35,877 nt of DNA from Candidatus Altimarinota bacterium (GTDB lineage Bacteria; Patescibacteriota; Minisyncoccia; Phycocordibacterales; UBA5272), in the NCBI GenBank assembly GCA_021734745.1, contig JAIPIK010000011.1:1-35877 (forward strand). Direction: 5' to 3'. Of the stretch, positions 1,818-25,084 are shown piece after piece. Every line of letters starts with the position of its first letter. Position 1 is the first letter of the stretch. The notes under the pieces are model-generated. The model was not told the origin of the DNA. It saw only the letters and a list, made by a program, of their open reading frames with translations, and made no database searches. The translations under genes were made by a program, and so were the position numbers.

Positions 1818-3320
1818 TTAGTCTTTTAATAAGCTCGCACCTATTCCTGTGAGTATCCCTGTGCCTGCGACACCTCCTATTATCTTTGTTCTAGTTGGGT
1901 GTTTTTTAATCCATAACTGGATAGCGTTTCTTCCTTTTTCTTTGATAGCCTTTTGGTTTGTTATGTCCTTAAGGTTGAATAATTGGCTCATTTCTTTCAT
2001 AGATGTTTTATAAACACCATCTGGTGTTCTTTCGGCTATGAAGTCTTGTATAGCATTTCTAAACTCTTTCTTAATGGTGTTTTGTAGACTTGGAGAACCT
2101 GAAAATGCTTTCTCTATTGTTCTGTCAAATTCTTTTCTTGATTTCCAAAGAGTTTCCATATCGTTCTTTTTAAGACTCTTTAAGAAGTTGTTTACTGTGT
2201 TTTGTTTTAGTTTAGATAATCTAGCTTCGTCAATAGTCAAGTCATCAATATCTGCTAATTTTTTAGTTAGACTATTTTTAAGTTCGCCTGTATTAAATAT
2301 TCCATTATTCTTCTTTAAGAAAGTGCCTACTTCTTTATCTTTTTTAGCTATTTCATTTATGATATTTTCTGTATTTTTAACTGGGTCATTAGTAAATATA
2401 CTCTTGTATTTTTGAGCGATAGCTTTTTCTTCTAGAGAAAGAATATATTTTGATGGTTGAGTTGCTGTTTTTGGAGTAATTTTACCACGATTTAGTAAGT
2501 CTTCGTATTCTGTTGGTGTTAAATCTTTTGTGTTTGGAGTGATTGCATCTAAATACTTATTTTGTTTTGTAATTTTAGCTTGTTTTATACCACCAGAAAC
2601 ACCACCTGTAACTGCACCAAGCACACCACCTGTTGCACCACCAAGTAAAGCACCTGTTCCTGCATCTTTTAATACACCCTCTAAGTCTTTGTCCTCTTGT
2701 AAGCCCTGTGAAGCTCCTAATAATCCACCTGTGCCTGCCCCAGTTATAGCACCTGTTGTAGCACCCTTCAAAGCTCCTGAACCAACGCCAATCCCTGCCA
2801 TTCCAGTTTTACCAGCCAAAGCACTTGCTCCTTTAAAAATTGTTCCAGCTCCTGCTAAAGTTCCTAATTGCAAAGCATCTCCTAAAACTTGTTTAGTTGT
2901 AAGTTCGTTTGGGTTAAGCAATCCTTCTGCTCCTTCGCCTGTTGCTCCTATATCTTCAGTTATCATAGCTAAAGCATTTTCTAGTCTTGAAGTATCAATA
3001 CCTTGTGCTTTGTTTTGTTTTGTTCTTTCAAGTAAGTCTGATTGTATTTTTATTTGGCTAGCTTGCGTTTCTTCTATTTGTTTGACTACTTTGGGTCGTG
3101 CGATTGCTTGACCTAAACCTTGAGCAATCTCTTTACCGCCTGTGAAATCTGCTACTTTTTCTGTGAAAGTTCTTTTAGGTTTTTCTGTTGTTTGTCCACT
3201 CGCCAAAGCATCTATTTCAGCAAATCTACTATTTAAATCTACTGATTGTTTGCTTGGTGGTATATACCCTTGTATGTTGTATTTTTTTAATATTTCTTGT
3301 GCTAATTGTTGTTTATCCAT
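1818..3320 (-). CDS. Internal virion / DNA-ejection-type protein, 500 aa
   Basis: Not assignable to a named family with certainty. The N-terminal third is charged and helical. Residues about 140-250 are extremely rich in Gly, Ala and Thr ('GALLGGATGGVLGAVTGG'), a glycine-zipper-like stretch that can enter membranes. The middle is Lys-rich and helical, and the C-terminus has another small-residue hydrophobic segment (IIGGVAGTGILTGIG). This pattern and the position between tail genes and the fibre resemble podovirus ejection (pilot) proteins, which form a channel through the host envelope. It follows the 563-aa protein with one base between them, so the two are probably co-translated and co-packaged. 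The start is ATG 3320. Confidence 0.6.
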   Translation of the reverse strand: MDKQQLAQEILKKYNIQGYIPPSKQSVDLNSRFAEIDALASGQTTEKPKRTFTEKVADFTGGKEIAQGLGQAIARPKVVKQIEETQASQIKIQSDLLERTKQNKAQGIDTSRLENALAMITEDIGATGEGAEGLLNPNELTTKQVLGDALQLGTLAGAGTIFKGASALAGKTGMAGIGVGSGALKGATTGAITGAGTGGLLGASQGLQEDKDLEGVLKDAGTGALLGGATGGVLGAVTGGVSGGIKQAKITKQNKYLDAITPNTKDLTPTEYEDLLNRGKITPKTATQPSKYILSLEEKAIAQKYKSIFTNDPVKNTENIINEIAKKDKEVGTFLKKNNGIFNTGELKNSLTKKLADIDDLTIDEARLSKLKQNTVNNFLKSLKKNDMETLWKSRKEFDRTIEKAFSGSPSLQNTIKKEFRNAIQDFIAERTPDGVYKTSMKEMSQLFNLKDITNQKAIKEKGRNAIQLWIKKHPTRTKIIGGVAGTGILTGIGASLLKD

Positions 3321-10249: not shown

Positions 10250-11134
10250 TTATGAAACTAATATATCAAATAAACAAGGAACCATTTTACTCCAAGCCTT
10301 GTATTTTGAGTCTATTCTTGACTCTAGTCCAATACCTGAAATTTGAGCACCAGATACTACTGGGTTGATAAGAGTTTTCACTTTACCATAAGTAGACTTA
10401 CAGATACCTACTGCAAATGCTTTCTTAACACCTGCAAGAACGTGTCCTGAAGCGTGTTTTGAAGAACTGTAGTGATACATACCCATCCACTTGAATCCAC
10501 CATTTACTTGTGAGATACCATCCTTAAGAACCATATCTGCTGTGTTGAATCCTTCTGCTGAAGCAAGAGTTTCAACTAATTCATAGTCAGCTTCACGCCA
10601 TACTATAAATCCACCGTTACGAGCTAACATATCTCCACCACCAGCTTCGCGGATTTCTCTTTTGATACCTGTGATGATTTTCTTAATGTTAGTTGTAGCA
10701 ACAGTGATGTTTCCTGCTGAACCACCAATAGACGCATTGTCAAAATTTGTCCATTGTGCGTGTTCTGCTAACATAGCTGTTTCCATTTTTTCGTTAAGCA
10801 TAACACCTACGTTGTCAGCAACTTCCATCCAATCGGAGAAAGTCTTTTGTGCAAGGTCAGCATCATCTATAACTGGAGCAGAGTACACATAATCTGTGAT
10901 AGATACTGTGTCATCTGTTGTTTCAACTGCGTAAGGAGTGTAGCCTGTGCCACGAGTTCCTGTACCTACTGTTGCATCTGTTAGGTAAGGATTTCTCCAA
11001 ATACCTGTGTCTGTGTATTTAACTAAACACACTTCTTTCCAAACTGTTGGAGCAGATAAACGCTCCTGCAATTTGGTCTCATATTCTATCTTAGGTATGA
11101 TAGCCGTAAAATTTAGTGCAGTATCATTATATCG
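10250..11134 (-). CDS. Major capsid protein, start codon region disrupted
   Basis: The phage coat protein: the sequence from 'TALNFTAIIPKIEYETKLQ' onward reads like the N-arm and start of an N4-gp56/P22-like coat, and gene order (scaffold, coat, decoration) agrees. The frame is open back to TAG 11135-11137, which lies on the edge of the inserted HNH unit. No ATG, GTG or TTG occurs in that frame before TTG 11071. Starting at TTG 11071 gives 273 aa and discards about 21 codons that look conserved. The native start was therefore probably upstream of, or replaced by, the insertion. How coat protein is made is unclear; see findings. Confidence 0.75.
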   Translation of the reverse strand, partial: RYNDTALNFTAIIPKIEYETKLQERLSAPTVWKEVCLVKYTDTGIWRNPYLTDATVGTGTRGTGYTPYAVETTDDTVSITDYVYSAPVIDDADLAQKTFSDWMEVADNVGVMLNEKMETAMLAEHAQWTNFDNASIGGSAGNITVATTNIKKIITGIKREIREAGGGDMLARNGGFIVWREADYELVETLASAEGFNTADMVLKDGISQVNGGFKWMGMYHYSSSKHASGHVLAGVKKAFAVGICKSTYGKVKTLINPVVSGAQISGIGLESRIDSKYKAWSKMVPCLFDILVS

Positions 11135-11135
11135 C

Positions 11136-11761
11136 TACAATTAAATATGTTATAATTTTGTTAATATTATTTGAGTATATCTTTCTTCAAACAATTCCTC
11201 TTTCTGCATAGTTTTAATGTGACAAGGTCTACATAAAGTGATTCCATTATTTATATCATGTCTTAATGCTTTAAAGTTTCTCCAAGGCTTTATGTGGTGA
11301 GCTTCTAAATACCCACCCCTTATACCACATTCTTGGCAAGTAAAGTCATCTCTGTGAAATATTGCAGTTCTCCATTCTTTAACTTTGATAAGTCCCCTTA
11401 TCCTATGGTTTTCAAGTGCTATTGTTCTATCTTTAATCCAAGCGTGGTGTTTTTCTCCTGTCCTCCTTCTCATTACTGCTTTTTGTTTTTCTTTATCTCG
11501 TTTTTCAAGATTAGCAAGATTTATTTCAGGATGGCTTTTTGAACTACAAGATTTAGAGCAAAACTTCTTTTTAGGCATAAAGCAATTAGTGACAAAATCT
11601 TTCTCGCAGAATAAACAGACTTTAGGTATAGGAGTTAATCCTTTTTTGAATGGTCTTTTCCTTTTAGGGTGTTTCCTGCCTATGTTTATAGACCTGTGCT
11701 TGTCTGTTCTTTGATAGACTCCTGATGGCATATTAACACCATTATAACATATTTAATTGTA
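11136..11761 (-). mobile_element. 626-bp HNH unit bounded by 32-bp terminal inverted repeats
   Basis: Left end 11136-11167 and the reverse complement of right end 11730-11761 match at 30 of 32 positions; the first 20 bases of each are TACAATTAAATATGTTATAA. The right repeat contains a TATAAT and the HNH ATG. The left repeat contains the HNH stop. The unit is therefore exactly one gene plus its ends. Adjacent flanks differ (TT versus GC), and I see no clear target duplication. Inverted repeats are not usual for free-standing HNH genes. Confidence 0.7.
11150..11731 (-). CDS. HNH endonuclease inside the inverted-repeat unit
   Basis: 193 aa. It begins 'MPSGVYQRTDKH', the usual start of phage NUMOD/HNH proteins. 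A zinc-like CLFCEKDF...CSKSC module follows, then the classical HNH segment 'CQECGIRGGYLEAHHIKPW' with 'LCRPCH' at the end. It should be a site-specific nicking or cutting enzyme. Its -10 (TATAAT, 11741-11746) is only 9 bases before the ATG, so its mRNA would have almost no leader. The stop (TAA 11150) is in the same frame as the downstream coat gene, separated from it by two more in-frame stops. Confidence 0.85.
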   Translation of the reverse strand: MPSGVYQRTDKHRSINIGRKHPKRKRPFKKGLTPIPKVCLFCEKDFVTNCFMPKKKFCSKSCSSKSHPEINLANLEKRDKEKQKAVMRRRTGEKHHAWIKDRTIALENHRIRGLIKVKEWRTAIFHRDDFTCQECGIRGGYLEAHHIKPWRNFKALRHDINNGITLCRPCHIKTMQKEELFEERYTQIILTKL

Positions 11762-11806
11762 AATGAACTTCTGATACCACCTGGTTAATCTTTAGTAATT
11801 ACCAGA

Positions 11807-12364
11807 TTACTTTTGATTATAGAATTGTCCTTTAGATTCGTCTTTTTTAAGGCGAGCATTTACTACTTTAATTCTCATTTCTTGAGGCACTTCCTCTATT
11901 GGTTTAGACATCCAGTATTCAACAGAGTCTGTTGTAACACCTGAACGCTTGCTGCCTTTAGGGATAGCTTCAGTAGTTTTATTCAAGTTTCTAAACTTTT
12001 CTAGTCTTGCTTTAAAATAATCATTTTCTAACAAGCTATCTAAGTCTTCGCCTGATTTTTTTAGTTCATCTTTAACAAAGTCAAATTCTTTAGAACCTTT
12101 AATGCCATTAGCTGTTAAATATGCCTTAGCACCATAATCTAAGTCGTCTGATTTTTTGCTTTCACTCTTTTTTTCTGGCTTATTCTTGTTTCTATCAAGG
12201 ATAGCTTTATATTTAAGAGCTTCTGCTTTCCAATCTTTGTCATCTTCCTGAGAAGTTTCTAAATCTTGGTTTGTAGTTTCTTCAGAAGTTTCTTCTGTTG
12301 ATTCTACCTCTTGGTCTTGAGTGTCAAGCTGTTCCAAGTCAGCTGTTTTTTCATCGTTTTCCAT
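11807..12364 (-). CDS. Capsid scaffold protein, 185 aa
   Basis: The first 50 residues are dominated by Glu/Asp/Thr/Gln, the middle is a Lys/Asp-rich helical region, and the C-terminus is basic and helical (VNARLKKDESKGQFYNQK). This acidic-then-basic, low-complexity layout and the position immediately before the coat gene are characteristic of scaffold proteins, which drive procapsid assembly and then leave. No protease motif is visible. It starts ATG 12364. Confidence 0.75.
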   Translation of the reverse strand: MENDEKTADLEQLDTQDQEVESTEETSEETTNQDLETSQEDDKDWKAEALKYKAILDRNKNKPEKKSESKKSDDLDYGAKAYLTANGIKGSKEFDFVKDELKKSGEDLDSLLENDYFKARLEKFRNLNKTTEAIPKGSKRSGVTTDSVEYWMSKPIEEVPQEMRIKVVNARLKKDESKGQFYNQK

Positions 12365-16604: not shown

Positions 16605-18098
16605 TTATACAGCAGGATTGCTTGTTTGTTCTTCTTCGTGGTCTACTGGTTGAAAGTATGGTGGCTTTGCGTGGTGTAGTTGCATAGATAAACTATCAAT
16701 CACATCATCGTGTTGTCCATTTGGAAACACTCTCATTTCATCTAGTAAATCAAAGTTATCCCCAACTAAGAAAATAGATTTACTTTCCCATCTAGGAATC
16801 AAACCTCTTATTCTTAATTCTTTCTGTATACCTCTATGTTTTACTGGGGTGATTGATATAAAGATATTTCTTTTTCTCATTTCATCTTCTAAAAAGGGTT
16901 GAATAGCCATTGTAAAGGTTGTTTCTTCTATCCCTATGAACTGTGGGCTATAAGTTTTATAAACAAAGAATAGATGGTCAATCAAATCTTTACTATTTAC
17001 CTTTAATTTATAAGTCTTTATATACCATTTGTTCCCCCTGTCTACTCGGTTTATAGTTACACCGGTAAAGTCAGCACTTTCTTTTTCACTTACAGCACTG
17101 TCAATCGTTATATAACAGTTAGTTTCTTTTTGAGATACTTCATGTTCGGTTATTGGTTGAGCATATTCTCGCTTAAACTCTGCTGACATTTCGTCAATAG
17201 GTTTGTTCATCATTTCGTATGAGAACACTAGAGAGCCTAGCTGACGTTGTTTGTCCTCTATTGATACTTTACCTGTTTTATTAGCTTCTTCGTCTGTGAG
17301 GGCATATTTAGACTCCCAAGCAGGTTTACCATTCTCTAGTATTACTGGAATGTTTCTTACTCTTATTCCTTTGTCAGTCTTTGCTCTATCTATAAGAAAG
17401 TTTATATTTCCATATTCTGTAATATAATTTCCTAGATATAAAAGAAAACCATTCGGAGCTAAACCAGCCATAGCTTCTGTAATATGTTCACGAACCTGCT
17501 TTGTGTAAGCCTCACTATCCTTTGTTTTATTAGTTTCTATATCATCAAGTATTAAACAGTCTGGTCTTTGGTTTAAGTGTAACCGACCTCTAACTGATTC
17601 TTGTGTGCTGTGAGCTTCAACTCTAACTCCATTTTCACAAACGAAATTGTTAATTCTGTTTTGCTTTATATCATTAATACTCCTTTCTTTACTGAATAGA
17701 ACACCAAAATCGGCTTGTAAGCGTTTGTTGTTAACCATCTCATAAGCTACATCAAACAATATTCGTTCAGAATTTTCACGGTCGAAAGAATCTATATTTA
17801 AATATTTTCTTTTCTTGGTAGCAATAAGCCAAATAACAAATATTTTAGCAATAGAGGTTTTTCCTGATTCTCTGAAAGCAATCCAAACAACTTCTCTTAT
17901 TTTAGACTCTGATAAATCAAAACAATCTTTAAAAAAAGCATAGTGGTAATCAGCCAATTCATACTTAAAATAACTTTGGAAGTAATATAAAGCGAACAAA
18001 CCAAAACTATTCTCTGAAAGAAATAGTCTTTCTTTTTTTACTCCTTCAATCATCTTTAATAACGCTCTTTTATTTATTTTGCCTTGATTTTCCTCCAT
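16605..18098 (-). CDS. terL: Terminase large subunit
   Basis: The 497-aa packaging motor. The ATPase domain has Walker A 'RESGKTS' (about residues 76-82) and Walker B 'LILDDIE' (182-188). The nuclease domain has metal-binding acids in 'YITIDSAVS' (D333), 'GIEET' (E391/E392) and 'HDDVIDSLS' (D464, D465, D468). Both halves are complete, so it should be active in DNA packaging and cleavage at the portal. The N-terminal ~10 codons overlap the end of the HNH gene by 29 bp; a second in-frame ATG at 18053 could be the original start. TerS lies just beyond the HNH gene. Confidence 0.95.
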   Translation of the reverse strand: MEENQGKINKRALLKMIEGVKKERLFLSENSFGLFALYYFQSYFKYELADYHYAFFKDCFDLSESKIREVVWIAFRESGKTSIAKIFVIWLIATKKRKYLNIDSFDRENSERILFDVAYEMVNNKRLQADFGVLFSKERSINDIKQNRINNFVCENGVRVEAHSTQESVRGRLHLNQRPDCLILDDIETNKTKDSEAYTKQVREHITEAMAGLAPNGFLLYLGNYITEYGNINFLIDRAKTDKGIRVRNIPVILENGKPAWESKYALTDEEANKTGKVSIEDKQRQLGSLVFSYEMMNKPIDEMSAEFKREYAQPITEHEVSQKETNCYITIDSAVSEKESADFTGVTINRVDRGNKWYIKTYKLKVNSKDLIDHLFFVYKTYSPQFIGIEETTFTMAIQPFLEDEMRKRNIFISITPVKHRGIQKELRIRGLIPRWESKSIFLVGDNFDLLDEMRVFPNGQHDDVIDSLSMQLHHAKPPYFQPVDHEEEQTSNPAV

Positions 18099-18642
18099 AG
18101 TTATCTGTTTTTAAATGGCAATCGTAACATAAAGTCCTGCCATTATTTATATTCCATAATTCTTCACAACTTTCAGATTTTTCTAAAGTATCTATTTTAT
18201 ATTCAATTAGAATAGATACAAAACTTTTTGGATAGTGGTCAGCATTTAATTTACCTCCTTTCTTTAAGCACCAAATACAAGTAAAGCTATCTCTAGTAAA
18301 TATATCAGAACGCCATTGTCTATATTGAAATGATTGTCTTATTGTTGGTCTTAACTTTGTTCTACCTCCTCTCCAAAGATGTGATAAATCACCTTTTTGT
18401 CTATCACTTATTTGTTTTCGGAGTTCTATCGAAGAATATGCTTTTTTATTTGATTGTCCTATCTTCTTTTTATGTTCTTCTGTATGAGGTATACCTTTTC
18501 TATTTGGTGGGAATATGCCCTTTGCTTTACGAGTTTTACTCATACTCTCACGAGCTTCCTTTGTATGCTTGTAACCTTTAAGACCTGTTTTTATTCCTGT
18601 TTTGTTTTTATTCCAAGGGATATATCCTTTTTTAAAAGCCAT
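18070..18642 (-). CDS. HNH homing endonuclease between terS and terL
   Basis: 190 aa. The N-terminus has 'GYIPWNKNKTG...KHTKEARESMSKTRK' NUMOD-like repeats. The C-terminal HNH region has 'CIWCLKKGGKLNADHYP' and 'GRTLCYDCHLKT'. The second motif reads ADHYP rather than the usual HH or DH form but keeps the His. It sits 1 bp after the terS stop and runs 29 bp into terL. Homing genes between terminase subunits are known in many phages. It probably cuts the junction in relatives that lack it. Confidence 0.85.
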   Translation of the reverse strand: MAFKKGYIPWNKNKTGIKTGLKGYKHTKEARESMSKTRKAKGIFPPNRKGIPHTEEHKKKIGQSNKKAYSSIELRKQISDRQKGDLSHLWRGGRTKLRPTIRQSFQYRQWRSDIFTRDSFTCIWCLKKGGKLNADHYPKSFVSILIEYKIDTLEKSESCEELWNINNGRTLCYDCHLKTDNYGGKSRQNK

Positions 18643-20607: not shown

Positions 20608-21225
20608 TTAAATTCCATTAGATTCGTTGGGTTCATTTATGGGTTCAATTTTCTTCTTTCGACCGCCTCTTGCCCCGTAATATCGGGCAGAGTAGCAAGT
20701 AAGAATCTTCATAATATCTTCGGCTAATTCCTCTTCATACTTCTTTTCTTTAATTTCCACTATCTCAACAATAATCTCTAAATTTCTAAAAATTGCGTCC
20801 AAGTATTCATATCCAAATCTTGCCAGCCTATCTTTATATTCGATTAAAATCCGTTCAACTTTCCCCTCAAAACACATCTTAATCAGCTTATGTATTCCTT
20901 TTCGTTTTTCGTTTATTCCGCTGGCTATTTCATCTATCATCAAATACTTGTATCCTTTTTCTTCGGCGTGTTTTCTTAATCTGTCTTTTTGTCTTTCAAG
21001 GTTTTCTTTTTGTTTGGCGGTAGAACATCTGGCGTAAATTACGGTTAGCCGTTCTTGCTTTTCTTTCTTAACTCCCATATAAGCGTCAAGGTCATCTTCC
21101 CTGAATCGTCTGTGTTCACCGCTTGTTTTGAAAGAATTTAGCTTGCCGTTATTTGCTAATGTCTTTAACGAATTTATGCTTATGCCGAGATATTTGCTTG
21201 CTTCTGTTATTTTATAAATTTTCAT
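20608..21225 (-). CDS. IS607-family serine recombinase (TnpA-like), no partner tnpB
   Basis: 205 aa. The N-terminal MerR-type helix-turn-helix is 'YKITEASKYLGIS' to 'EHRRFREDDLDAYMG' (1-51). The resolvase catalytic domain begins 'TVIYARCSTAKQKENLERQ', with nucleophile Ser68, and contains 'KDRLARFGYEYL'. The C-terminus 'SARYYGARGGRKKK' is typical of IS607 TnpA. IS607 elements normally also encode TnpB, which is absent on either side. Its ATG overlaps the methyltransferase stop (ATGA), so it is part of an operon rather than an autonomous insertion. It could serve as a phage recombinase or integrase. Confidence 0.85.
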   Translation of the reverse strand: MKIYKITEASKYLGISINSLKTLANNGKLNSFKTSGEHRRFREDDLDAYMGVKKEKQERLTVIYARCSTAKQKENLERQKDRLRKHAEEKGYKYLMIDEIASGINEKRKGIHKLIKMCFEGKVERILIEYKDRLARFGYEYLDAIFRNLEIIVEIVEIKEKKYEEELAEDIMKILTCYSARYYGARGGRKKKIEPINEPNESNGI

Positions 21226-23841: not shown

Positions 23842-24210
23842 TTAATTCCAATCTCCTACTAATTTTATATTTTTTGCTAAACTTTCTTTTGGTAAAATTT
23901 CTTTTATTTCTTCTAAAGTGAATCCTGCAATTCCTGTTCCTATTGGAGTCAAAAGATATTCTTTGTCTGGGTTTTGTTTTGCTTCTTCGCTTAAGGTATA
24001 AAGTTGTTGCTGGATAAAAGATAAAGAAACTTTTTTAAAATTCTCATCTAGTGTTGCTATTGCATAACTTTGACCTTGTAAACCTTGACCTTGATTTTCT
24101 ATTGCTCCGAAACTTTCTACTGCTTGTCTGGCACTACCACCTAAATGTTTACCTGCCATATTGCTACCGAAGACAAATATCTGATTTTCTTTTAAAGTTT
24201 TAATATTCAT
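23842..24210 (-). CDS. Macro-domain-like phage protein (A1S_2505 type), 122 aa
   Basis: 'IFVFGSNMAGKHLGGSARQA', 'GQGLQGQSYAIATLD' and 'YLLTPIGTGIAGFTLEEI' are the characteristic blocks of a widespread phage protein family resembling macro domains, which bind ADP-ribose-like nucleotides. The catalytic role is not established. A counter-defence or NAD/ADP-ribose-handling role is plausible but inferred. Its ATG lies within the 3' end of the 294-aa repeat protein (11-bp overlap), so the two are translationally linked. Confidence 0.7.
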   Translation of the reverse strand: MNIKTLKENQIFVFGSNMAGKHLGGSARQAVESFGAIENQGQGLQGQSYAIATLDENFKKVSLSFIQQQLYTLSEEAKQNPDKEYLLTPIGTGIAGFTLEEIKEILPKESLAKNIKLVGDWN

Positions 24211-25084
24211 CTTTTGGTAATTCTCTTAATACTTTAATTTTACTTGTTCTAATTCTACCGTCGCAATCTTCTGAAACTACTATATCTTTTATGTCAGTTT
24301 CACATTCTAGGATTGCTAAGTCTTCCCAGTTTTTACCAAATAATCTAGCCCAATTAAGATGTGATAAATGTATTCCTGCTGAACAGGACTCTGATTTGTT
24401 TTTGTCGCAATTTTCTTCTTTTGTTTCTCCTATTGTATAAGTAAAAGAATTGTTATAGTCTGAAAAATATACGTCATCTCTTTTGTGTACTGCTTTGTAT
24501 AGAATTGCTTTTTTACCTTTAGTTTCTACTGGATAAAGTTTAGAGTACATTTTGAATGTTGTATCTTCTTTGATTGTTTTTTTGATTTGCACAAAAGTTA
24601 CATCTGCTCCTAATTCTAAATCAATTTTACCTGTACCAATTTGTCTTATTAAGTTCATACCTTTTGCTATGACTTTTTTTGCTGAATAAAGTAATACAAG
24701 TGAAGCAAGACCAGTCATCAGAAGAATTGTTGCGTTGTCATAGACAGACTCAATTGTTGCGTTGTCATAGACAGACTTAATTGTTGCGTTGCCAGAGACA
24801 GACTTAATTGTTGCGTTGTCATAGACAGACTTAATTGTTGCGTTGTCAGAGACAGACTTAATTGTTGCGTTGTCAGAGACAGACTTAATTGTTGCGTTGC
24901 CAGAGACAGACTTAATTGTTGCGTTGTCAGAGACAACTATATACGCTTCTATAAAAGAATACTTAATACTTATAGCTTCTTTTGTATTTTTAATTTCTAC
25001 TCTACCTTTATAATTTAATGGAATTGTATCAAATTCTTTTTGGGTAGTTATTATTAGCTCACTTAGTAATTTTTTGTTAAACAT
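24200..25084 (-). CDS. Tandem-repeat protein with C-terminal phage domain, 294 aa
   Basis: Residues about 49-120 are eight 9-residue repeats of the form 'DNATIKSVS', expected to stack as a small beta-solenoid. A hydrophobic segment follows (ILLMTGLASLVLLYSAKKV). The C-terminal half has 'YKAVHKRDDVYFSDY', 'CSAGIHLSHLNWARLFG' and 'DIVVSEDCDGRIRTSKIKV', a domain I have seen in uncharacterised phage proteins. It may be a membrane-tethered binding protein. Repeat number will vary between isolates. It precedes, and overlaps, the macro-like gene. Confidence 0.65.
   Translation of the reverse strand: MFNKKLLSELIITTQKEFDTIPLNYKGRVEIKNTKEAISIKYSFIEAYIVVSDNATIKSVSGNATIKSVSDNATIKSVSDNATIKSVYDNATIKSVSGNATIKSVYDNATIESVYDNATILLMTGLASLVLLYSAKKVIAKGMNLIRQIGTGKIDLELGADVTFVQIKKTIKEDTTFKMYSKLYPVETKGKKAILYKAVHKRDDVYFSDYNNSFTYTIGETKEENCDKNKSESCSAGIHLSHLNWARLFGKNWEDLAILECETDIKDIVVSEDCDGRIRTSKIKVLRELPKDEY
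24725..24940 (-). repeat. Eight 27-bp tandem repeats inside the 294-aa gene
   Basis: Units start at 24725, 24752, 24779, 24806, 24833, 24860, 24887 and 24914. They differ by one or two bases only ('tcagag', 'tcatag' or 'ccagag' in the same place). Each unit encodes nine residues, so copy changes stay in frame. There are no spacers, so it is not a CRISPR array. Confidence 0.95.

Follow-up and report, generated by a model that had tools for sequence, protein, structure and literature searches.

An HNH homing cassette that probably carries its own structured leader and near-cognate start codon into a phage coat gene

Introduction

Introns, inteins and intergenic regions are known hiding places of homing elements, and bacteria can initiate translation at near-cognate codons, the AUU start of infC being one example. 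The closest described systems come from T4 and the T-even phages. In T4, the mobA/gene 60 cassette sets an HNH homing nuclease beside a 50-nt insert that is bypassed by the ribosome and that may be protective (PMC5009743, PMC3014915). The free-standing T-even nucleases I-TevI, segB and mobE have hairpins over their ribosome binding sites, and essential elements or promoters of a neighboring gene, embedded in T4 endonuclease genes, favor retention of those genes (PMC2988022). In T4 genes 38 and 25, a hairpin between the Shine-Dalgarno (SD) sequence and the AUG shortens the spacing between them (PMC3014915).

The cassette considered here lies at the translation start of a phage coat gene and has something in common with each of these. 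As in mobA/gene 60, an HNH nuclease is coupled to an insertion within an essential gene, an insertion that appears to be tolerated through non-standard translation; however, the coat cassette would act on initiation rather than elongation, contains the nuclease gene itself, ends in a near-cognate codon, has no upstream open frame and no take-off or landing codons, and recurs in 14 lineages. As with I-TevI, segB and mobE, the nuclease gene starts within an RNA stem, downstream of a possible internal promoter, and, as with the embedded T4 promoters, replacement of the ATG would make the cassette hard to lose. Unlike in the T-even cases, the embedded element is the neighbor's start codon and the stem outlasts loss of the nuclease. 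A stem in the initiation region would join distant parts, as in genes 38 and 25, although this phage makes no general use of SD sequences, the codon is not AUG, and the stem reaches across up to about 700 nt. The codons are of the infC kind (AUU, AUC, ACG), but they stand before a coat gene and are linked to a mobile cassette. We found no description of such a cassette in the literature searched.

Results

The original prediction described a 626-bp unit at 11136-11761 of the window (the whole 35,877-nucleotide stretch of DNA analyzed), consisting of one HNH gene within inverted repeats, and this is confirmed. The 32-nt arms, complementary at 30 of 32 positions and 562 nt apart, form by far the strongest inverted repeat in the window at spacings up to 1.5 kb (the runner-up is 28 nt at 82%), and the ORF that they frame matches PF01844 (E 1.7e-10), its HH...N...H residues being invariant across five aligned cassette HNH proteins. 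The predicted bounds hold for the core but not for the full unit, which adds an outer stem, an internal loop and a start codon (Table 1); the mobile cassette spans about 11105-11780 on the minus strand. The upstream gene has no match in Pfam or PHROG and would be the scaffolding protein, a name drawn from its position only. Four further HNH-type genes lie on the minus strand of the same phage contig (7552-8085, 9487-10221, 18070-18642 and 29336-29743), none with a comparable flanking inverted repeat; one of them (18070-18642), a relative of the cassette HNH (E 1e-8), extends over the beginning of the large terminase gene.

Table 1. Features of the coat gene start region, in window positions
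Feature	Position	Strand	Basis or remark
Upstream gene (position of scaffolding protein)	11807..12364	-	ORF; relatives share place and C-terminal ...FYNS*
H1 hairpin, between upstream gene and coat	11781..11805	-	Present in cassette-free relatives too
S1 outer stem, 5' strand GTGGTATCA	11772..11780	-	Permutation test
Conserved GAAGTTC, internal loop 5' side	11765..11771	-	Comparison of leaders
S2 inner stem, 5' strand (right arm of inverted repeat)	11730..11761	-	Includes TATAAT 11741-11746 after TG; GGTG before HNH ATG
HNH endonuclease gene, 193 aa	11150..11731	-	PF01844; conserved HH...N...H
S2 inner stem, 3' strand (left arm of inverted repeat)	11136..11167	-	Inverted-repeat search, folding
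Conserved GATATAA, internal loop 3' side	11127..11133	-	Comparison of leaders
S1 outer stem, 3' strand TGATACTGC	11118..11126	-	Permutation test
ACG, probable coat start codon	11105..11107	-	Cassette-free relatives have ATG here
Major coat protein gene from probable start	10250..11107	-	phrog_267; alignment

Directly downstream of the unit, the coat ORF matches a major head protein family (phrog_267, E 2.4e-10). As predicted, its frame is open back to a TAG at 11135-11137 and holds no ATG, GTG or TTG upstream of the TTG at 11069-11071. In an alignment of 38 relatives of the coat gene, this TTG lies downstream of (nearly) invariant residues and is unconserved, reading CTA or similar in several relatives whose ATG aligns to 11105-11107, and we therefore rejected it as the coat start. 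Cassette-free relatives open ATG-GCx-ATx (M-A-I/V-I/V-...) and their ATG aligns with the ACG at 11105-11107, the sole near-cognate codon between the TAG stop and coat residue 2. No homologue begins near 11071, and the comparison lends support to the non-standard start that had been suggested. Judged by position, conservation and selection, coat translation probably begins at a near-cognate codon, ACG in the window.

Several other routes to coat expression were considered and set aside. The HNH and coat genes of the window do share a frame separated by TAA, TAA and TAG, as the original prediction had it, but this is not a conserved feature, the HNH gene of L006 and L028 being in another frame; readthrough from HNH to coat was rejected on the three stops in the window and the different frames in other lineages. 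SD cores precede only 2 of the 35 genes in the window (background 16%), and a split SD-based ribosome site, with AGGTGG at S1 in the window, was rejected on that count and because several lineages lack AGGTGG. A strong coat promoter at the TATAAT of 11126-11131 was rejected since its -35 hexamer is weak and the motif is absent in L028/L032; promoter sites were found at chance frequency (4 against 3.0 expected). No tRNA genes were found, which removes a phage-encoded initiator tRNA.

The same site carries a cassette or an HNH-less remnant in 14 lineages, the window and 13 others. These are metagenomic contigs linked by homing, and 14 lineages are not 14 independent origins. HNH-bearing cassettes have, at the position of the ATG, ACG (window), TTG (L006 and L126), GTG (L028, of the pair L028/L032), ATC (L029) or ATT (L101 group); the remnants have ATT (L008, grouped with L016 and L017), TTG (L019, grouped with L020, and L123), ATC (L023, L025/L031, L037 and L038) or, in L127 alone, ATG. 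Thus the position is non-ATG in 13 of the 14 lineages, and L127 indicates that ATG is not strictly excluded after loss of the HNH gene. Among coat tree rows, 24 of 24 cassette-free sequences have ATG and 16 of 17 cassette-bearing ones do not; cassette presence requires 6-8 changes on this tree, the sister of the window is the ATG-bearing L001 (83% identical), and in independent pairs non-ATG goes with the cassette by 5.5 to 0 (p about 0.03). Sequence pattern matches with a matching second arm occurred at coat starts only, those lacking a coat gene having no such arm.

It could be that the coat N-terminus is about five residues longer (X-A/P-N/L-N-F-I-A-I-I-P), reached from a non-start codon through some form of recoding. 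The residues upstream of the proposed start do resemble coat N-termini (ANTL, ANNFI, ALNFT), distant relatives begin MANTL or MANTM, and the -1 codons also encode Ile, Leu, Val or Thr, so part of the pattern could reflect a longer coding N-terminus. However, X has no common start-like codon (CTA, TTT, CTT, ACT and others), and the frame is closed or shifted there in L006, L019, L123 and L126. Moreover, near-cognates concentrate at -1: directly ahead of coat residue 2, all 14 lineages have either ATG or a near-cognate codon, whereas such codons account for 7 of the 70 at positions -2 to -6. We consider a longer N-terminus quite unlikely and retain the near-cognate start. Separately, a distant coat lineage with no recognizable cassette (L073/L074, around 2975-3003, about 46-47% identical) also lacks the ATG, reading ATT TCT AAC ACC ATC where L156 reads ATG GCT AAC ACT ATG, with a TATAAT just upstream.

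Near-isogenic empty and occupied alleles, L022 and L037, are almost identical in the upstream gene end and H1 and identical over about 160 nt of coat. Where L022 has ATTATCATG, L037 has instead a 78-nt stretch that ends in ATC; the coat sequence directly after it is the same in both, and there is no target duplication. This indicates that the near-cognate codon arrived with the cassette. The element had been predicted to lie within or just after the coat start; it is indeed an HNH element at that start, but rather than following the codon it has replaced the start region, codon included. In the L120 group, differences amount to 2-5 of 672 sites in the cassette, about 4% in the coat genes and about 1-4% in the upstream gene ends, leaving this cassette about ten-fold less diverged than its flanks; identity extends about 47 nt into the coat gene, the trace expected of homing with co-conversion. 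An identical remnant also precedes different coat sequences in L008 and L017. The cassette therefore has the attributes of a free-standing HNH homing element, namely an HNH domain with its catalytic residues, a fixed site, presence and absence among close relatives, and a gene-conversion signature; the target-site duplication (absent in L022/L037) and varied insertion sites of an inverted-repeat transposon (IS) were not seen. In L111, the cassette HNH gene has an in-frame TGA with intact cassette ends and coat gene, which is an early stage of HNH loss.

Coat dN/dS is about 0.14-0.24 in most cassette-bearing pairs and otherwise 0.3 on 6 changes, and coat genes of the L120 group have 0 or 1 amino-acid change in the first 30 codons. 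The low ratios mark the coat gene as functional by selection. A transposon-like knockout, with virions coming from element-free genomes only, would suit the inverted-repeat ends and the lack of a canonical coat start, but the site is always the same, L022 and L037 show no duplication, the coat gene is under purifying selection, and the arrangement recurs in 14 lineages from many metagenomes. This reading is scarcely credible, and the related suggestion in the original prediction, that only element-free genomes make coat protein, is disfavored by the selection on the coat gene and the recurrence.

An intron or excised element, whose removal would return a normal coat start to the mature mRNA or the genome, would explain the precise boundaries and the nuclease gene in the loop, and the GAUAUA motif reads as reminiscent of a group I core. 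Against this, no group I or II match appeared in Rfam even at E 5, the remnants, at about 60-80 nt, are smaller than known introns, and in remnants such as L008, L025 and L037 the stretch from the upstream stop to the cassette contains no ATG, so that joined flanks cannot restore a start. We regard an intron as very improbable, and excision as earlier proposed is disfavored because HNH-less remnants also lack the ATG and have no upstream ATG to recover. Ribosome bypass of the gene 60 type, also proposed, is disfavored in turn: in the window and the remnants no in-frame start runs from the upstream gene to coat, leaving no open frame to bypass from.

Leaders were folded with RNAfold, the coding part of HNH-bearing lineages being swapped for a short linker. 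Most lineages share one architecture, H1 followed by an outer stem S1, an internal loop and an inner stem S2, the long form of S2 being the inverted repeat itself. The loop is conserved as GAAGUUC and GAUAUAA, with GAA opposite UAA, which presumably resembles the UAA/GAN motif of rRNA, a lead only. The sequence of S1 varies by lineage (GUGGUAUCA/UGAUACUGC, AUGUUGU/ACAACAU, GGUAGUA/UACUACC, AUGAC/GUCAU, AUAAAGCC/GGGUUUAU, GAUAGC/GCUAUU, GCGGUGUUA/UAACAUUGC and others), with pairing kept within each lineage and also in HNH-less remnants. Cognate pairing was equalled in 0 of 200,000 permutations over 13 lineages, in three of which S1 boundaries had been set with pairing in view; a strict test without these three (10 lineages anchored on the motifs only) gave 0 of 500,000, with a cognate mean of -7.1 versus -3.5 kcal/mol, and for seven divergent lineages the cognate arrangement was the best of 5,040. 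Eight of the tabulated S1 pairs are G-U and none is A-C, and the coat-sense strand mostly gives the better fold, both of which point to RNA rather than a DNA cruciform. Two remnants, L019 and L123, show little or no folding excess over shuffles (z -1.3 and +0.45). An Rfam search of the leaders gave no meaningful match, the low scores of L038 being eukaryotic miRNA hairpins far below threshold. That stems persist in HNH-less remnants suggests a function that probably extends beyond the HNH gene. In L001 and L018, which retain an intact coat ATG, the leader between H1 and that ATG holds a short hairpin of another kind (CTAATAAT...ATTATTAG), which may be unrelated or ancestral.

Discussion

We propose, with a probability of roughly 0.7, that an HNH homing cassette specialized for the coat start supplies both a structured leader of its own and a near-cognate coat start codon. 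In this model, initiation in the phage would normally depend on an open, A/U-rich leader and AUG, because SD sequences are rarely used, and homing swaps the recipient's short leader and ATG for the cassette, as the L022/L037 pair shows. The cassette provides a G-poor spacer and a stem whose end lies about 7-14 nt upstream of the start; the folded stem would hold the HNH gene out of the path from the upstream gene to coat, and the ribosome would begin coat at the near-cognate codon without an SD sequence. As the old ATG is gone, a simple deletion of the entire cassette would take the coat start with it, which would explain the persistence of HNH-less remnants. The HNH start (11729-11731) is located at the tip of S2 and follows TG-T-TATAAT (11741-11749); S2 may thus bury it on long coat transcripts while short ones, perhaps from an internal promoter at the TATAAT of 11741-11746, would express the nuclease, a layout that would match that of T4 homing endonuclease genes (PMC2988022).

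Near-cognate starts without an SD sequence are weak in E. coli. That the protein most abundant in the virion should depend on such a start is surprising and counts against our model. It is doubtful, but conceivable, that the S1-loop-S2 leader acts as a prokaryotic IRES-like RNA, recruiting ribosomes without an SD sequence, fixing the start with no need for AUG, and spreading in a homing cassette.

A possible alternative, to which we give rather less than even odds, is self-immunity: the HNH nuclease would recognize the coat start including its ATG, the near-cognate codon would keep that site from being rebuilt, and the stem would only control HNH expression. Homing nucleases require resistant carriers, the 50-nt insert of T4 gene 60 may shield its carrier from a homing nuclease (PMC5009743), and carrier and ATG alleles coexist (L022/L037). 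However, insertion by itself should already destroy the site, and remnants that have lost the HNH gene retain both the stem, with S1 pairing kept, and the non-ATG codon. As for why ATG is avoided, it may restore the nuclease target, or the structured leader may set the start alone or, with AUG, overproduce coat.

On the model of a cassette-borne coat start, selfish DNA appears to seize the start signal of the phage's most heavily used gene, and to leave behind a structured leader and a non-AUG start that outlast the nuclease. If this holds, selfish DNA would be tied directly to an altered translation start, the 14 lineages with their matched empty and occupied alleles would form a naturally replicated set for the study of structure-driven non-AUG initiation in bacteria, and gene callers will mis-start cassette-bearing coat genes.

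On our best reading, the cassette is specialized for the translation start of a single coat-protein family, whose phages are associated with ultra-small hosts of the Parcubacteria type. A search of INPHARED gave no coat relatives among named phages. The window contig belongs to a 0.96-Mb, 97%-complete genome, a distant coat relative occurs in a genome of the same genus, and a scan of named genomes located it in the groundwater MAG nzgw467 and, at 81% identity, in Parcubacteria bacterium GW2011_GWB1_40_14; together these suggest that the phage host is a Parcubacteria-type bacterium. Elsewhere on the minus strand of the window, 20608-21225 encodes a putative IS607-type serine recombinase, judged by its MerR-like N-terminus and resolvase domain, and 24200-25084 encodes a protein with tandem decapeptide repeats of the NATIKSVSD type.
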